Shown: positions 3,319 to 11,488 of the stretch, one piece after another
Layout of the letters: each line of letters opens with the position of its first letter
Position numbering within the stretch: the first letter of the stretch is position 1
Assembly (NCBI RefSeq): GCF_001418575.1
Contig: NZ_LIQR01000114.1
Coordinates: forward strand, 1 to 64,000
Origin: Peterkaempfera griseoplana
GTDB lineage: Bacteria > Actinomycetota > Actinomycetes > Streptomycetales > Streptomycetaceae
Direction: 5' to 3'
Length of the DNA stretch: 64,000 nucleotides
The notes under the pieces: model-generated
What the model saw: the letters and a program-made list of their open reading frames with translations, nothing else
Database searches by the model: none
Told to the model about the DNA's origin: nothing
Translations under genes and position numbers: made by a program

Positions 3319-6300
3319 GTGAAGGCTTTGGAGCCGGATGATCCGGTGAACGTGGGGCCATACCGGATCACGGCGCGGCTTGGTGTTGGAGGGATGGGGC
3401 GTGTCTACCTCGGCGAGTCAAGGGCTGGGCGGGCGGTCGCCGTCAAGGTGGTGCGGTCCGAGTTAGCGGCGGATCAGGAGTTCCGTCGCCGGTTCGCCCG
3501 CGAGGTTGCCGCAGCCCGGCGTGTCAGCGGGGCCTTCACCGCCCCTGTGCTCGCGGCCGACCCGGACGGTGAGCCGCCGTGGCTGGCTACCCAGTACATA
3601 CCCGGCCCGTGCCTGGCCGATGTGGTCAGCACACACGGTCCTCTGCCCGAGAGCGCGGTCCGGGCACTCGGGGCTGGCCTCCTGGAGGCCGTCGATGCGA
3701 TCCACTCCGCCGGTGTCGTGCACCGCGACCTGAAGCCGTCGAACGTTCTGATCGCGGAGGACGGGCCGCGGGTCATCGACTTCGGCATATCGTCGGCCGC
3801 CGAGTTGAGCGCGATCACCCGCGCTGGATCCGTCGTCGGTACGCCCGGGTTCATGTCACCCGAGCAGTTGCTCGGTGAGTCGATCGGTACGGCGAGCGAT
3901 GTCTTCTCTCTGGGCGCCTTGCTGGTGTACGCGGCCACCGGTGAGGGCGCGTTCGGGCAAGGACCTGCCCATGCGCTGATGTACCGCATCGTCCACGAGG
4001 AGCCGGATCTTCACGCCGTACCCGAGCTCTTGAGGGCACCACTGGCCGGCTGCCTGGCCAAGGACCCGAGCGCGCGGCCCGACGTATCGTCTCTGCTCGC
4101 CCTCCTGGCACCGTCCGAGCCCCTGGGTCCGCACAACCCGTCCTGGCCGCCACCGACCGTCGTCGCGACTCTGTCTACCCATGCTGCTCCCACCATGACC
4201 GCCCCCGGCAAGAACAGTGCAGAGCGAGGTGCGAGGGCTCTGTTCGCCGGCCGTATCCGCCTCGGCCGGATCCTGGGCTTCGGGCGCCATCCCTCGGCTC
4301 CAGTCGGCCCCGCGGAGATGGCGGGGCAGCCAGCGGTTCGGCAGTCGGCGCAGGCTGCAGCGTCCCGCTCGGCGCGGCCCGCGCCGACGCCCACCCGGCC
4401 GGCCTCCGCGCCGCGTGCTCCAGTACCCGAGGCGTTCACGCTCGAGGCCTCCGCCTCGCTCCTCGACTGCATCGTGCATGGCGACCGCACCCTGGCCGTG
4501 ACCGTCGCAAACGAGGCGACCGACCCAATCGTCTGGGACCTTGCGGAACGCAAGTTGCTCAGAGTGCTGAAGGGCAATCAAGGCCCCGTTCGAGGGTTGT
4601 CCTGCGCACGTGTGGACGGCAGGAGCGTCGCCGTCACGGCCAGCATGGACAACACCATTCGCGTATGGGACCTGCAGTCCGGGGCCGTGCTGCGCACCAT
4701 CGAGCATCCCTCGCATCCGATCTTCGCCGACGAGGTGCGCTGCGGCGAACTCGACGGACGGCCCGTGGTGCTCGCCGTGTTCCGCGGCGACGGCGCGGTG
4801 CACACCTTCGAGCTTGAGAGCGGCACCGAGATCGAATCACTGGGGCATCGCATCGATGCGAACCGAGTGGATTCCCTGCGGTGCATCACGATGGCGGACG
4901 GCCGCTCCGTGGTGCTGACGTTCGGGTCCGGAAAACACGTGGGCGTCTGGGATCTCCGCACGAGGGAGCGCATCGCCGACCTGGATGCGCCGCTGCAAGA
5001 GGCGTGGGCCGCAGTATTCGCCGAGGTCCACGGGCGTCCGGTAGTCCTGGCCGGTGGACGAGGCCCAGGTCGGGAAGTACTGCACGTCTGGGACTTGGCC
5101 GCGTCTGGTGGTCCGACGCTCTGCTCCCTGCAGACTGGTGGCGACATCTGGGATGCCGCCACGGCGTCGGTGGATGGGCGGCCCGTCGCCGTCACGGTCG
5201 GTCATGCAGGGGTGCAGGTATGGGACCTGGACACTCTCAGTCTGGTGGCAGATCTCACGCTTCCCGACAACGCCCAGTTCGTCGGGAAGCTCCTGTGCAC
5301 GCACCTGCACGGCCATCCGTGCGCCGTGCTGGCCACAGACGCGGGCACCCTGCGCGTCCTGCCGTTGGCAGGCGAACTCCGGGCGCCGAACTGGCCGGCG
5401 ACCACTCGAGCACCAGCCACCAGTGCGGGCGCGACCCCACAGCCGCTGCGCCCGGCCTTCGTGCAGTCATCGAGCGGCGGTGCGCGCGTATCCGCCCGCA
5501 TCACCGCACGGCACACGCTGACCGAGCCTGGCCCGCAGTTCTCGGCACTGACCTGCACGGTTGTGGGCGGCCGCCCCCTTGCTGTGATCGCGACCCGGGA
5601 GGGACTGCGGATCTGGGATGTGGCGACCGGCTCCCATCTCGGCCTGTTGATCGAGGGCTACCGGTTTCAGACGGTGGCACTGGCCTGCGGAACCCTGCGG
5701 GGCCGTCCGATCGCTGTAGCCGGCGACGACGACGGAATGGTGCGCGTCTGGGACCTCGAACGCCACCAGGAGCGGATGGCCCTGCAGTGCCAGAAACGCG
5801 GTGTCCTCTCCATCGCCTGCACCACCCTTGAAGGCCGGACACTGGCCGTCGTCGGCGGCAGGGACGACGTGGTTCGAGTCTGGGATCTGGCCGTACAGAA
5901 GCAAATCGCCTCCTTCGGCGTCCGGGACGTGGTGTCGCTCGAGGTCGCCCACATCGACGGTCAGTCCGTCGTCCTGGCCGGTGACGAAGACGGCCGACTG
6001 AGCCTGTGGGACCTGGCATCCGCAAGCCCTCGCATGGCCACGCTGCGCAGCGCGAGCGGGCCAGTCGAGTCGATCGCCTGGGCCGACACCCCCCAGGGCC
6101 CCGTAGCCGTGCTGGGCGGTCCCCTGACCCATCTGTGGGACCTGACCACCCTGCAGCGCATCGGCTCCCTCGGCGACGGCCGGGACTACCCCCACGCCGC
6201 CTGCTGCACGTTGGTCGAGGACTGGTCGCTCACGATGGTGGCGACCCGTCAAGGGCAACTGAAAATCTGGGACCTAGCGTCCCGGCACCTGATCGGGCAG

Positions 6301-6447
6301 GAATCCTTCCTCGTCGAGGAGGCGGCCTCCAACCAGGACCTGCGTGCGGTGGCAGCAATTCCCCGGCGGCTCGGCGCGATCCTGGTCGCTGCCCGGGCCG
6401 ACGGAATCGTCGGCACCTTTGACCTCACCCTGGAACCCAACCACTAG
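3319..6447 (+). CDS. Ser/Thr protein kinase with C-terminal WD40 propeller (copy 1)
   Basis: A 1042-residue Hanks-type kinase. The kinase domain covers about residues 12-268: glycine loop LGVGGMGRVY (21-30), catalytic Lys43 in AVKVV, HRDLKPSN at 135-142, DFG at 154-156, and GTPGFMSPEQ. An Ala/Pro-rich linker (about 270-370) has no evident membrane helix, so the protein should be cytosolic. Residues 375-1040 hold many WD-type blades ending in VWDL or IWDL, probably more than one propeller. The GTG start has GGGGAGG 7 bases upstream. A convergent paralogue lies at 8037-11267. The stop codon TAG lies exactly at the left end of the inserted IS and is preserved. The substrate is unknown; the propeller probably selects partners. 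Confidence 0.95.
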   Translation: MKALEPDDPVNVGPYRITARLGVGGMGRVYLGESRAGRAVAVKVVRSELAADQEFRRRFAREVAAARRVSGAFTAPVLAADPDGEPPWLATQYIPGPCLADVVSTHGPLPESAVRALGAGLLEAVDAIHSAGVVHRDLKPSNVLIAEDGPRVIDFGISSAAELSAITRAGSVVGTPGFMSPEQLLGESIGTASDVFSLGALLVYAATGEGAFGQGPAHALMYRIVHEEPDLHAVPELLRAPLAGCLAKDPSARPDVSSLLALLAPSEPLGPHNPSWPPPTVVATLSTHAAPTMTAPGKNSAERGARALFAGRIRLGRILGFGRHPSAPVGPAEMAGQPAVRQSAQAAASRSARPAPTPTRPASAPRAPVPEAFTLEASASLLDCIVHGDRTLAVTVANEATDPIVWDLAERKLLRVLKGNQGPVRGLSCARVDGRSVAVTASMDNTIRVWDLQSGAVLRTIEHPSHPIFADEVRCGELDGRPVVLAVFRGDGAVHTFELESGTEIESLGHRIDANRVDSLRCITMADGRSVVLTFGSGKHVGVWDLRTRERIADLDAPLQEAWAAVFAEVHGRPVVLAGGRGPGREVLHVWDLAASGGPTLCSLQTGGDIWDAATASVDGRPVAVTVGHAGVQVWDLDTLSLVADLTLPDNAQFVGKLLCTHLHGHPCAVLATDAGTLRVLPLAGELRAPNWPATTRAPATSAGATPQPLRPAFVQSSSGGARVSARITARHTLTEPGPQFSALTCTVVGGRPLAVIATREGLRIWDVATGSHLGLLIEGYRFQTVALACGTLRGRPIAVAGDDDGMVRVWDLERHQERMALQCQKRGVLSIACTTLEGRTLAVVGGRDDVVRVWDLAVQKQIASFGVRDVVSLEVAHIDGQSVVLAGDEDGRLSLWDLASASPRMATLRSASGPVESIAWADTPQGPVAVLGGPLTHLWDLTTLQRIGSLGDGRDYPHAACCTLVEDWSLTMVATRQGQLKIWDLASRHLIGQESFLVEEAASNQDLRAVAAIPRRLGAILVAARADGIVGTFDLTLEPNH

Positions 6448-6461
6448 GGCCTGTTTCAAAA
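6444..6461 (+). repeat. left terminal inverted repeat of the IS
   Basis: CTAGGGCCTGTTTCAAAA. It includes the TAG stop codon of the upstream kinase and is the exact reverse complement of 7895-7912. Confidence 0.85.
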
Positions 6462-6480
6462 GCTTGCTTCGAGTGAGCGG

Positions 6481-6918
6481 TCAGTCGGCGGTGAGGATGT
6501 CGGAAAGGCTCACGGCGGGGCGCCCAAGCATTGCTGTCAGCACGCGCTGCTGGCGCTCGGTCAAAGAGGCAACGAAGATCACTGCGTCAGCATTGGCCTG
6601 GTCACAGGCCTGGGCCACCTCGCGGACCTTTCCGTAGCTCAGCAAAGTCCGCGACGAGTAGGGCAGACCCATCTTCTGGACCCCGCCGTCCGAGACGCCT
6701 CGTCGCTGCACAATCTGCACGACGACCCGAGCGCCCCGCGCTGTCAGTTCTACGGCTGCCGACGCCATGAGCGTTTCGAAGTCCTTCTGCTTTGCCGAGA
6801 AGTAGCCGACCAGGACCACATCAGCCCCCGCAGCCGTGAGCTGCGAGGACTGGCGCCGGGCCCGCTCCGGCGGCACGCGGCGAGCAATGCGGCGGTCGCG
6901 CCTTCTGGGCTGATGCAT
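6481..6918 (-). CDS. HflX N-terminal-like domain protein, IS passenger
   Basis: A 145-residue protein. After a basic N-terminus (MHQPRRRDRRIARR) it resembles the N-terminal domain of the ribosome-associated GTPase HflX: ADVVLVGYFSAKQ, GVSDGGVQKMGLPYSSRTLLSYGKV, and FVASLTERQQRVLTAMLGRP. The G domain (Walker A and later motifs) is absent, and the protein stops at the equivalent of the domain boundary, so it is a stand-alone domain and not a GTPase. It lies wholly inside the inverted repeats of the IS, downstream of the transposase and on the same strand. It may be a passenger influencing translation or frameshifting, but that is speculation. It could also be a captured gene fragment. Confidence 0.65.
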   Translation of the reverse strand: MHQPRRRDRRIARRVPPERARRQSSQLTAAGADVVLVGYFSAKQKDFETLMASAAVELTARGARVVVQIVQRRGVSDGGVQKMGLPYSSRTLLSYGKVREVAQACDQANADAVIFVASLTERQQRVLTAMLGRPAVSLSDILTAD

Positions 6919-6991
6919 GGACCACAGGCTAGAAGCCTGGCCACCTGCAGCGATACCACGTTTCTCGTGGGCCGAGGGTCGGCCAGGAAGA

Positions 6992-7866
6992 TCAGAGCCA
7001 CTCGTTGATGACGGCGATCGTGACGGTGGCCTCGTAGCGGACGGCCAGCTTGTCGTACCTGGTGGCCACCGCTCGATGGCGCTTGAGGCGGTTGATCCCA
7101 CACTCGACCGCGTGGCGCTCGCGGTAGTCGGCCTTGTCGAACTTTGGCGGGCGGCCGCCGCGAGCGCCCAGCTTCTTGCGGTTGCGGATCTGGTCGGACT
7201 TCTCCGGGATCGTGCAGCGGATCCCACGTCTGCGCAGGTAGTCGCGGTTGGCTCGCGACCCGTAAGCCTTGTCTGCCCGCACCCGACCCGGTCGCCGGCG
7301 CGGCCTGCCAACGCCGGCCCGAGGCACCCGGATGCGCTCCAGGACGGGCTGGAACTGGGGACTGTCGTGCCGCTGACCGGCGGTGACCAGGAAGGAAAGT
7401 GGTTTTTGGCCGTGCTCGACCGCCAGGTGCACCTTCGTCGTCAGTCCACCGCGTGAGCGTCCGAGCCCGTGGTCGGCGGGCTCGACTGCGACTCCGCCTG
7501 GTTTGTCCTGCTGCAGGTCCCCCTTTTACGAGCGCCCGCCGCATGCTGATGCGCCCGCGCGACCGTGGAGTCCACGCTCACGTCCCAGATGATCAGGCCC
7601 TTCGCGTCAGCCTCGGCCTGCAACTGGGAGAGGATCCGACTCCAGGTGCCGTCGCGCTGCCAGCGCCGGAAGAGCCCGTAAACGGTCTCCCACTCACCGT
7701 AGCGGGCGGGAACGTCTCGCCAGGGCGCACCGGTCCGCGTCCGCCAGCGTATGCCGTTGATCAGCTGCCGCTTCGACCAGACCGGAGGCCGCCCCGGCTT
7801 CTTGCCTACCGGCAACAGCGGCTCCAGCCTGGCCCATTGCTCGCTCGTCAGATCCCCACGTCCCAC
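6992..7866 (-). CDS. IS5-family transposase made by programmed frameshift
   Basis: Two overlapping frames encode one DDE transposase. The first (7866-7441) starts [19 protein letters not shown] and contains WRYG-type helices and the first catalytic Asp in DVSVDST. The second (ending at 6992) contains [17 protein letters not shown], the second Asp in RADKAYGS, and the catalytic Glu in [16 protein letters not shown]. They join in phase if the ribosome slips by -1 at the A4G5 run at 7519-7527 (AAAAGGGGG on the coding strand), a usual feature of this IS group. The ATG lies about 30 bases inside the right inverted repeat. All catalytic residues seem intact, so the element may be active. Confidence 0.88.
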
Positions 7867-7894
7867 GAGTGGATCATGACAGACCTTGATCCAC

Positions 7895-7912
7895 TTTTGA
7901 AACAGGCCCTAG
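7895..7912 (-). repeat. right terminal inverted repeat of the IS
   Basis: TTTTGAAACAGGCCCTAG is the exact reverse complement of 6444-6461. It marks the outer end on the transposase-start side. Confidence 0.85.
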
Positions 7913-8036
7913 TACTCCAGTGGCGGTTCTCCAGCAGCAGCGACTCCAGTTCCGCCGCCCACCAGACGGCCTCGACATCTGACTTCACAACCGACCAACA
8001 CCGCATGGGCCGGGAACGCCCGTGCCGTGGGCGAGC

Positions 8037-11000
8037 CTACTCGTGTCGGACGAGGGTGAGATCGTAGGTGGCGGCTGCACCGTCCCCTCGGACGGCCACC
8101 AGGATCGTGCCGCGCAGTCCGGGCACCGTGGTCAATGCGCACAGGCCCTCTCCCATGTGGTCCGCCTCAACGGACTCCAGCAGGGCGGCTTCGCCGATCG
8201 GTTTCCGAGCGGCCAGGTTCCACACTTGCAGGACCCCCTTGCCGGGGGTGGCCAGCACCAGCGGCACATCCTCGACCCGTGTACCGTGGACGGTGCGGTA
8301 TTCGGCGCGGGACAGGTCGCCGACAGAAGCTCTCCGCCGCAGGTCCGTCAGGTCCCACAGATGCAGGCGAGTACCGCCAAGGACCGCTATGTGGTGCCGA
8401 CCGGCAGTGCTGTGGGCCAGAGAGCCAACGGGCCAGTCTTCGGAGCGCAGGGTGGCTGTGCGTGAGCCGTCCCGCAGGTCCCACAGGGTCAGTCTGCCTT
8501 CCTCGTCGCAGGCAAGGACCGTGGGATGACCGCCGATTTCGGCAATTGCAAGGGAGACCACGTCGCGGGCGCCGAACGCCATCGTCTGCTGCTGCGTCGC
8601 GAGGTCCCAGACGCGCACCTCGTCGTCCCGGCCACCCACGATGGCCAGGGGCCGGTCCGCGAGGTTTGTGCAGATCAGAGAGAGCACCTCGTGCCGTTGA
8701 CTCTGCAGGGACAGGTGTTCCTGTCGCTCGGCCAAGTCCCACACCCGCATCAGGCCGCTGGCGTCACCCGCCGCGACGACCGGCCGCCCACTCAGGGTGG
8801 CGCACGACAGCGCGTGAGCCTGGAAGAGGCTCCCTGACGTGCTCAGGGAACCCAGGCGGGCCCCTGCTGCAACGTCCCACAGTCCCATGCCACCGGGCCC
8901 GCCGAGCACCGCCACGGCACGCCCGTTCACCAGCGACCAGTCCATGCACGTGATCCGGGGGCCGCGCCCAGTGAGAATGTGGCGCTGAGCGACCTCAACG
9001 GCGAGCCCCTTGGTGGCAGGCACCTGGGCCACCTGTACTCCGCGGCTTTGCCTCCCTTTCTGAATCGCGGGAGAGGCGATGGCGGGCCAGTCGAGTGTGC
9101 TCAGGGCTGCGGTCAGACTGAGCACGTGCACGCGATGTATCCACGGCTCGCCCGGTCCTGTGGGCACCGTTCCCACCGCGGCGACCACACAGGAGTGACC
9201 GCCGATCTTGATACAGGCGAGGTCGCGGACGGAGGCGGCACGTCCGGGAAGGGACAGGGTTGCCACCTCGCTGAAGGTTTCCGCATCCCAGACCCGGACA
9301 TGATCATCGCCTGTGACAGCAACAGGGCGGCCGTCGACCCATGCGGGCCGTACTGCACCCGTGGCGCGGTAATTGCCATCTTGCAGGAGGATCTGCGGCC
9401 GCTTTCCCGCAGTCAATGCCCATACCGGCAGTTGGCCGCCCTCGCCACGCCCGCCGCAGATCACGAGCGTGCGGTCGCCGACCTCGATGCAGCATGCATC
9501 CCACGTATCTTCCAGCGGAGAGATCAACCTGTGCACCGGAGCGTGGGTGGTCAGGTCCCATACCCGAACCATGCGATCCGCCGCAATGGTGAGCACGACC
9601 GGCCGGCCATCGATCCGTGTGCAGCCGATGAGGTCGGCACGAGAGCCGTTGAGCATCGGGCCAGCAATGGGGATCTCGCTGAACGTCCGCAGATCATAGA
9701 CGCGCATGAGGCGAGAGCCCCCCGTTCCCGCAACAACCGCAGGAATGCCGTCCAGTTCGGTGCAGAAGACTTTTTGGACTGGGAAAGAGTCACGCGGATA
9801 CAGGATCGTGTTCAGCAGAGTATGGTCGGCCAGACTCCAGACGCGGATCGTCCCGTCGTCTCCTGCCGTGACAGCGGCACTCCGGCCCTCGAGAGTCACG
9901 CAGCAGACGTCTCTCACCGCATCGGTATGCCCGGCGAGTACGCCGGTTTGCGCCTGCGCGTTGAGGTCCCAGACGGTGGGCGTGGCGCTGTCCGGTGACA
10001 CCACCACGGCTAGGGTCCGCTCACCGTCGACAAGGCAGTCGAGGGAGACAGCGTCGGTGTCGAGGACGAAGCCTTCGAACGAGGCAGCCGCTGGCTTGAC
10101 CCGGGTCGCGACTGGGCCGGGGGGTGTCTGCGTCAATACGGGCGGCACAATGATGTTCTGGCGGGGATCGGGAGCGGCGCCTGGGGCGCCTGCCGGTGGC
10201 GCAGGCGGGGCCGCGACGTCCTCAGGAGCTTCCATAGCGCCGGCGGGAGACTCTGCAGGTGGCACGGGCAGCGACGGGACTGTGGGAAGGCGTCGACGAA
10301 TGCCCAGGACCCGGCCCAGCCACGTGCCCTGCTTCTCCTCACCACGCTCCGGCGCGCCGCCTTCGATACTGATGACCGTAGCGGCATCGGGCCGCGACAA
10401 CGTCGCAGCAATCGCCGACGGCAGCCACCGCCGCTCACCAAGGCCACCGAGTTCGCTCTGCGACACCCCGTGCGGCAGCAACTCTGCCAATAGCTGAGCC
10501 ACGCCTGGACGGTCATCAGGGTCCTTGGCCAAGGCGCGGCCCAGCGGAGTGCGCAAGGCCTCGGGCACCGCATCGAGACGAGCCTGGTCATGAACGATTC
10601 GGTACATCAACGCTGGCGCCGCGGCTTGACCGAACGCTGATGCACCAGTCGCTGCGAAGACCAGCAAAGCACCCAGAGAAAAGATGTCGCTCGCCGGCCC
10701 CACCGGCTTGCCTACCAACTGCTCCGGCGACATGAACCCTGGAGTTCCCACAATCGAGCCCGTCCGGGTGAGCGCACTGAATTCGGGCGCAACCGAGATC
10801 CCGAAGTCGATGACCCGCGGCCCGTCCGCCGCCAGCAGCACGTTGGACGGCTTCAGATCGCGGTGCACCAGCCCAGAAGAGTGGATCGACTCCAAAGCCT
10901 CCAAAAGGCCGGCACCAAGCAGCCGCACGGAACCTTCCGGCAGGGCACCATGCGCGCTCAGCACATCGGACAGACAGGGCCCTGGGACGTAGAGCGTGGC

Positions 11001-11267
11001 AAGCCACGGCGGATCGCTGTCCGGGTCCGCACCCAACACCGGAGCAGTGAACGCCCCGCTCACCCTCTGCGCGGCGGCGACCTCACGTGCGAACCGGCGG
11101 CGGAACTCCGCGTCTTCGGCCAATTCCGAGTGGACCACTTTGACCGCGGCCCTCCGACCAGCTCTCGAATGACCGACGTAGACACGTCCCATGCCTCCAG
11201 CGCCCAGACGTGCAGTGATCCGATACGGTCCCACCTGCTCGGGATCTCCCGGCTCCAGTGCCTGCAT
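8037..11267 (-). CDS. Ser/Thr protein kinase with C-terminal WD40 propeller (copy 2)
   Basis: A 1076-residue paralogue of the kinase at 3319-6447, in the opposite direction. Kinase domain about residues 12-268: LGAGGMGRVY, Lys43 in AVKVV, HRDLKPSN, DFG, GTPGFMSPEQ. A Pro/Ala-rich linker follows to about residue 395, then WD-type blades (VWDL, LWDL) to the end. I chose the ATG at 11267 (MQALEPGDPEQVGPYR) because it aligns with the start of the paralogue and has GGTGA upstream; a GTG at 11282 would add five residues. The two kinases share blade order and many identical stretches, so they probably arose by an inverted local duplication before the IS inserted between them. Confidence 0.93.
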   Translation of the reverse strand: MQALEPGDPEQVGPYRITARLGAGGMGRVYVGHSRAGRRAAVKVVHSELAEDAEFRRRFAREVAAAQRVSGAFTAPVLGADPDSDPPWLATLYVPGPCLSDVLSAHGALPEGSVRLLGAGLLEALESIHSSGLVHRDLKPSNVLLAADGPRVIDFGISVAPEFSALTRTGSIVGTPGFMSPEQLVGKPVGPASDIFSLGALLVFAATGASAFGQAAAPALMYRIVHDQARLDAVPEALRTPLGRALAKDPDDRPGVAQLLAELLPHGVSQSELGGLGERRWLPSAIAATLSRPDAATVISIEGGAPERGEEKQGTWLGRVLGIRRRLPTVPSLPVPPAESPAGAMEAPEDVAAPPAPPAGAPGAAPDPRQNIIVPPVLTQTPPGPVATRVKPAAASFEGFVLDTDAVSLDCLVDGERTLAVVVSPDSATPTVWDLNAQAQTGVLAGHTDAVRDVCCVTLEGRSAAVTAGDDGTIRVWSLADHTLLNTILYPRDSFPVQKVFCTELDGIPAVVAGTGGSRLMRVYDLRTFSEIPIAGPMLNGSRADLIGCTRIDGRPVVLTIAADRMVRVWDLTTHAPVHRLISPLEDTWDACCIEVGDRTLVICGGRGEGGQLPVWALTAGKRPQILLQDGNYRATGAVRPAWVDGRPVAVTGDDHVRVWDAETFSEVATLSLPGRAASVRDLACIKIGGHSCVVAAVGTVPTGPGEPWIHRVHVLSLTAALSTLDWPAIASPAIQKGRQSRGVQVAQVPATKGLAVEVAQRHILTGRGPRITCMDWSLVNGRAVAVLGGPGGMGLWDVAAGARLGSLSTSGSLFQAHALSCATLSGRPVVAAGDASGLMRVWDLAERQEHLSLQSQRHEVLSLICTNLADRPLAIVGGRDDEVRVWDLATQQQTMAFGARDVVSLAIAEIGGHPTVLACDEEGRLTLWDLRDGSRTATLRSEDWPVGSLAHSTAGRHHIAVLGGTRLHLWDLTDLRRRASVGDLSRAEYRTVHGTRVEDVPLVLATPGKGVLQVWNLAARKPIGEAALLESVEADHMGEGLCALTTVPGLRGTILVAVRGDGAAATYDLTLVRHE

Positions 11268-11488
11268 CCCACTCACCCCCACGTCTGGACGTCGTACGCG
11301 CCAGCATCCATTGTCTTGAGACGCGCAAGATCGTGGCGACAGTTGCAGGCAGAGGCCCGCACCCGCGTTGGCGGCAAGAGCAGTCGGCGACGGCGGGATG
11401 GGCGCAATGCAGCAGCTATGCGGACTGATCGCGGGTCACACCCGCTGGAGTGCTGTGTGAGTCGGCCACTCGGTGATCCGTGTTGGGG

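Follow-up and report, generated by a model that had tools for sequence, protein, structure and literature searches.

Insertion sequences (IS) are usually viewed as carrying a transposase and nothing else. Elements of the ISEcp1 type mobilize genes that lie adjacent to the IS; an IS that moves a downstream gene by means of a right end situated beyond that gene would work alike, ISEcp1 itself belonging to a different family from the IS5 element described here. Single IS whose inverted ends enclose a transposase and one passenger gene are an established concept, the transporter IS (tIS), and the accessible portions of the relevant reports describe tIS as isolated members of their groups, namely 3 of 21 further listed IS1202-group elements and a single member of the IS6 family (PMC9330008, PMC7986276, PMC10132070). 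The IS427 group, according to the available part of an account of Paracoccus elements, has two overlapping ORFs, a conserved frameshift motif, short inverted ends and a length of 832-865 bp, with a 2-bp duplication in most of the listed elements (PMC3281130).

Here we describe an element from Peterkaempfera griseoplana, located in a 64,000-nt stretch of DNA referred to below as the window, that shares the organization of a tIS: a single IS with inverted ends, a transposase and one passenger gene. Inverted repeats and transposase are both present, a gene unrelated to transposition resides inside the ends, and co-movement is indicated by comparison with other copies. By its two-ORF frameshift layout the element resembles the IS427 group, and a TA within its CTAG would be compatible with the 2-bp duplication given in the available account of that group; with its passenger it is considerably longer, at 1469 bp, than the IS427-group elements covered there. 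Our main reading, to which we assign a probability of roughly 0.87, is that the element represents an IS5-family transporter IS moving a gene for a stand-alone HflX ND1 domain, and that it belongs to a subgroup whose cargo is exchangeable and may be captured by way of a second right end. In the open-licence literature, we found no description of IS5-family elements with exchangeable cargo, nor of a mobile HflX domain.

Anatomy of the element and its passenger

The element is intact-looking and consists of perfect inverted ends, a two-frame DDE transposase and one passenger gene (Table 1). Its two 20-nt arms exhibit 100% complementarity, and the element proper extends from CTAGGGCCTGTTTCAAAAG to CTTTTGAAACAGGCCCTAG, with 19 nt per end. 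The 16-nt core of these ends occurs at two window sites only, which are the element ends (chance expectation 0.00), and a chance inverted repeat was rejected on these grounds.

Table 1. Features of the IS5-family element in the window
Feature	Position	Strand	Remarks
Whole transporter IS (IS5 family)	6444..7912	-	1469 bp, CTAG counted at both ends
Right inverted end, passenger-distal, with target CTAG	6443..6462	+	
Passenger gene, arginine-rich N-terminal extension and stand-alone HflX ND1 domain	6481..6918 (runs 6918-6481)	-	145 aa
TAGCCT, probable -10 box	6926..6931	-	7 nt before passenger ATG; putative leaderless start
Transposase ORF B	6992..7432	-	DDE_Tnp_1; ends at 6992
Transposase ORF A	7441..7866 (runs 7866-7441)	-	DUF4096 / NF033580; GTG start
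A4G5 run, probable -1 frameshift site	7519..7527	-	Predicted joint of ORF A and ORF B
Left inverted end, transposase side	7894..7913	-	

The products of ORF A and ORF B match DUF4096 (E 1e-28) and DDE_Tnp_1 (E 1.2e-14), respectively, and both score above the curated cut-off of 110 bits for NCBIfam NF033580 transpos_IS5_3 (125.2 and 113.4 bits). A D, an E and a Y-2-R-3-E-6-K signature can be read in ORF B. Judged from the sequence, a -1 shift at the A4G5 run would probably join ORF A to ORF B.

At its right end the element abuts a kinase-WD40 gene at precisely the stop codon, which is supplied by the TAG of the CTAG target. Two convergent, paralogous serine/threonine-kinase genes, named from their sequence, flank the IS at window positions 3319-6447 (+) and 8037-11282 (-); both have WD40-like C-terminal parts, with C-terminal DNA that is 65% identical, and the IS lies between them without disrupting either. 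The window copy is the single one in the draft genome of the host (802 contigs). No empty site is available for it, because neither of the two congeneric genomes has the kinase locus.

The passenger protein exceeds the cut-off for PF13167 GTP-bdg_N (31.1 bits; cut-off 25.4), and reaches only 28.3 bits against a cut-off of 216.75 for TIGR03156 GTP_HflX, as expected for something other than a full HflX. It is a relative of the HflX ND1 domain, not an HflX. The 8.24-Mb draft genome contains a separate full-length HflX gene, and these two are the sole genes of such type; their products are 29% identical over 91 residues and have QRR and GK stretches in common. An AlphaFold model built on an alignment of 20 homologues (pLDDT 74.6, pTM 0.67, with low values for the N-terminal extension and for residues 76-90) was subjected to structure comparison using VIA-align, in which residues 30-145 of the passenger fit the N-terminal domain of HflX. 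The best match is to residues 1-105 of Listeria HflXr (Z 15.7, 101 residues, rmsd 1.6), and rows 1-17 are all HflX/HflXr, mitochondrial GTPBP6 or a Sulfolobus GTP-binding protein. All seven Foldseek matches at E<=0.001 are to HflX or HflXr, and a passenger profile run against the PDB likewise found HflX (E 1.1e-4). The initial annotation of this DNA, made from the letters alone, had proposed an IS5-family element with perfect 18-base inverted ends, a frameshifted transposase and a stand-alone HflX N-terminal domain between those ends; these proposals are borne out by the complementary arms, the profile scores and the ND1 fold, 18 bases being about right for ends of 19 nt.

Whereas the fold and the QRR/GK motifs of the passenger are the same as in ND1 of HflX and HflXr, the helical domain, the GTPase and the C-terminal domain of HflX are all missing, and the passenger has two additions, an insert that precedes the GK motif and, at the N terminus, an extension of ~30 residues that is rich in arginine. 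Within this extension (window 6835-6918, minus strand), R6, R9, R10 and R14 are invariant across 20 homologues. The available part of a study of HflX reports that ND1 touches helix 69 of 23S rRNA and that mycobacterial HflX too has an N-terminal extension, which disorders rRNA helices (PMC12493154). Every HflX domain except ND1 is missing from the passenger, and it is therefore by analogy with ND1 that we infer binding to the large ribosomal subunit near helix 69. One might speculate that the passenger extension is a functional counterpart of the mycobacterial one. As cargo, the ND1 domain represents a natural single-domain probe of the ribosome-facing module of HflX in a form that has no GTPase.

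Relatives of the IS and their cargo

A search with the transposase portion of the element yielded matches in 142 of the 394 genomes searched from the host's family (E<=1e-100). Relatives were sampled among the matches listed, as the loci given by the search together with 80 further regions, leaving out short or contig-edge matches. Of the resulting 110 loci (L059-L168), 109 had a usable alignment, meaning a transposase region that extends from query position <=60 to >=850, and 102 were retained after duplicate removal. In 65 of these 102 relatives a right end (<=3/17 mismatches) is located 290-1983 bp past the transposase stop, with other genes between, a proportion that is not a population frequency because the sample is ordered by likeness to the window transposase. 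Another 22 are cargo-less elements of 0.945 kb, in which the right end occurs ~10 bp past the transposase stop and reads TGACCAGCACTTTCGCAACAGGCCCTAG or nearly so. The other 15 have no right end at <=3/17 mismatches, and 8 of the 102 have none at <=4. As controls, right-end matches at <=3/17 mismatches were sought in 97 regions and were found in 83 downstream regions, versus 1 upstream region and 1 reversed region.

The initial annotation had assumed that members of this IS group are normally about 0.85 kb and transposase-only, and had considered a passenger to be unusual among them. Cargo-less relatives do exist, at the slightly greater length given above, yet most of the sampled relatives carry other genes in the slot, and the supposed rarity of a passenger does not hold. 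In contrast to the isolated tIS of the accessible literature, the relatives sampled here commonly have cargo, which draws on some 40 ORF families and has been swapped between closely related transposases. Transporter IS as such are already known; what appears to be new, judging from the open-licence papers searched, is an IS5 subgroup with cargo exchange on such a scale, of which the window element is one member.

The cargo is diverse. The best insert ORFs could be sorted into 41 groups (the 40 or so families), 39 of which are found among the 65 cargo-bearing elements, and 45 of 68 best ORFs are oriented against the transposase, the other 23 running with it. For 28 of 40 cargo representatives there is a Pfam match at E<=0.01, some of them under the curated cut-off. 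The types represented are GNAT acetyltransferases, SnoaL-like proteins, NmrA-like and short-chain reductases, zinc alcohol dehydrogenase, alpha/beta hydrolase, glyoxalase, RidA, LanC-like, ankyrin and TPR proteins, MmyB/HTH and other regulators, nucleotidyltransferase and DUFs. Inserts without a convincing gene are L110, L157 and L165, whose ORF calls are doubtful, and L158, which has no ORF. The insert of L160 holds a secondary IS, an IS3-like transposase by its sequence, that interrupts cargo of the L128 type. The cargo at L117:3836-4288 contains the Pfam NTP_transf_2 nucleotidyltransferase domain and resembles an aminoglycoside nucleotidyltransferase, with a frame apparently broken before the C-terminal part. 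Upstream of the genes in L164 and L166, which belong to an unrelated cargo family (c00), there are a GGAA...TGTCGCT block and a box near the ATG resembling those that precede the HflX-ND1 gene, and these perhaps reflect a shared regulator or promoter type. Outside the host's family, cargo-type inserts at <=3 mismatches were present in 3 of 15 loci scanned (L176, L181 and L182).

By sequence comparison, cargo moves together with these elements. Four genomes each contain a pair of copies with 99.9-100% identity across 1392-1681 bp, a span that takes in the cargo; the flanks of the two copies are unrelated on both sides (45-53%). For L064, which belongs to one of these four pairs, two relatives possess an uninterrupted site that aligns gap-free over 301-302 nt across the junction. 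This empty site has a single 4-nt copy of the target, and the element ends lie in CTAG, a palindromic target that hides whether 2 or 4 bp were duplicated. The same empty-site search for the L065 element (G101), also from the four pairs, found no contiguous site.

Exchange of cargo is apparent from the transposase tree, in which 51 cargo-state changes are needed. The well-supported transposase clade that includes the window element comprises five elements with four cargo types, and several cargo families recur on distant branches. In L131, a fragment of one cargo is followed by a GNAT cargo, a mosaic whose sequence suggests serial replacement. Among nine cargo families with at least two members the median dN/dS ranges from 0.15 to 0.61, and the cargo is thus under purifying selection. 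Because dozens of different genes, each carried singly, occupy the corresponding slot among close relatives, the group has the appearance of a natural gene-shuttling platform. If a common actinomycete IS subgroup routinely swaps genes in this manner, many "hypothetical" accessory genes beside Streptomyces IS5 transposases would be mobile cargo, and IS annotation may end such elements too early.

Possible routes of cargo capture

In this actinomycete subgroup, the stretch from the stop codon of the transposase to the right end very often houses a single exchangeable gene. We propose that such a gene would be captured if transposition employed a further right end, one situated downstream of a neighboring gene. 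The distal right end would probably derive from a sister copy, in line with the better match of distal ends to the left end of their own element than to those of other elements (figures below), and the internal right end would then decay. Consistent with this scheme, an internal right-end vestige follows the transposase stop in 17 of 69 cargo elements at p<=0.05 (~3.5 expected) and in 9 of 69 at p<=0.01 (~0.7 expected), the clearest being those of L096, L107, L126, L134 and L142. The window element has no significant internal-end vestige (p 0.345), nor do 52 of the 69 cargo elements, so these remnants hint at, more than they establish, distal-end capture.

For the same reason there is room for a second route, in which cargo enters the slot by insertion or recombination, as an exchange between IS copies. 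We hold this to be the less probable of the two, but a serious contender. It is compatible with the close agreement between the two ends of individual elements, with 2.42 mismatches between own left and right ends against 3.95 for permuted ends (0/2000 permutations; five near-identical copies left out), and with the L131 mosaic, which looks like one cargo replaced by another. Against it stand the five clear examples of a decayed second right end straight after the transposase stop, which is what distal-end capture predicts. Both routes may operate. Since distal ends match the left end well, and any internal end that can be seen has decayed, the cargo seems to be a fixed part of the element, unlike that of ISEcp1-type systems. 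Relatives both with and without cargo are at hand, as are mosaics, an empty site and vestigial ends, and gene capture by these IS is therefore directly testable.

A bolder extension of distal-end capture, which we regard as doubtful, would have most elements of the IS5 subgroup disperse one promoter-bearing gene each, like a cassette in a fixed slot, with such genes swapped between lineages by end-switching and left behind in genomes as accessory genes that outlive the IS; the window cargo would be an autonomous, GTPase-less HflX ND1 with a basic extension that binds the ribosome at helix 69 and acts as a new type of mobile translation modulator.

Probable history and proposed role of the HflX-ND1 passenger

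Of the same 394 genomes, 22 contain a passenger homologue (E<=1e-10), one per genome, and 39 homologues, the window's included, were compared. Eleven distinct passenger loci stop at the same right inverted repeat, beyond which their flanks are unrelated: the right 200-bp flanks of these loci, compared as 55 pairs, have a mean identity of 50% and a maximum of 56%. In this count L032-L035 were not scored separately, as they represent the same insertion as L022. One of the loci, L014, is a second full-length element with both ends, is 90.3% identical to the window element over 1474 aligned columns, and has different flanks on both sides. Its transposase is broken, and the other IS-linked passenger loci retain just parts of the transposase. 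L022, L034 and L035 have both ends and the passenger, with most of the transposase gone, and L032 and L033 are assigned to this same shortened insertion by their shared flanks. The remaining passenger homologues among the 39 have no right end at <=4 mismatches. By this comparison of sequences, the passenger moves with the IS. The initial annotation had looked to copies at other sites for such movement, and they are found; it had also held that copies of the IS lacking the passenger would speak against it, and such copies do exist among relatives with other cargo or none, but they leave co-mobility intact.

The passenger gene tree places 25 copies, 17 with IS remnants and 8 lacking them, in a single clade that is nested among stand-alone passenger genes, with six state changes needed, a pattern that fits a single capture followed by loss of the IS. 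The TAGCCT box is kept 7 nt before the ATG in IS-linked and in most stand-alone homologues, and since the latter share it, the passenger seems to have been captured together with its promoter. The window's passenger was thus probably captured once, promoter included, and the transporter IS would move one host-type gene between its inverted ends, a stand-alone HflX ND1 with its own, probably leaderless, promoter.

Of the 39 homologues, 38 have a passenger ORF free of internal stops, and in the other one the stop occurs at the last aligned codon. This is suggestive of a passenger kept intact while the transposase decays, although retrieval by protein match favors intact ORFs. Median dN/dS is 0.26 in 14 IS-linked sequences (L046 included) and 0.35 in 20 stand-alone ones. 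We suggest that the passenger, with its presumed ribosome binding at helix 69, would be kept for the benefit of the host and not of the IS. The opposite view, that a ribosome-binding domain serves the IS by tuning the -1 frameshift of the transposase, draws on the coincidence of a frameshift-type transposase with a domain related to a 50S-binding protein. We consider it improbable, because frameshift-type transposases of the group occur with unrelated cargo or with none; moreover, some relatives have a single-frame transposase, and stand-alone passenger homologues persist as intact genes that have neither IS ends nor transposase. The passenger as a transposition-only factor was rejected on these three observations.

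The least probable explanation by a small further step, that of an ordinary IS beside an immobile native gene with a chance or solo right inverted repeat, accords with the stand-alone homologues that lack IS ends and with the want of a comparable empty site where the kinase locus is absent, but is contradicted by the 11 shared right ends with unrelated flanks, one of them in a second full-length element, by four other genomes in which two identical copies, cargo and all, occupy different sites, and by the empty site for L064.

The internally deleted element (L022, L034 and L035:3623-4475; also L032 and L033) resides on related Streptomyces plasmids or contigs, and short tandem CCTAG repeats lie directly outside its right end.
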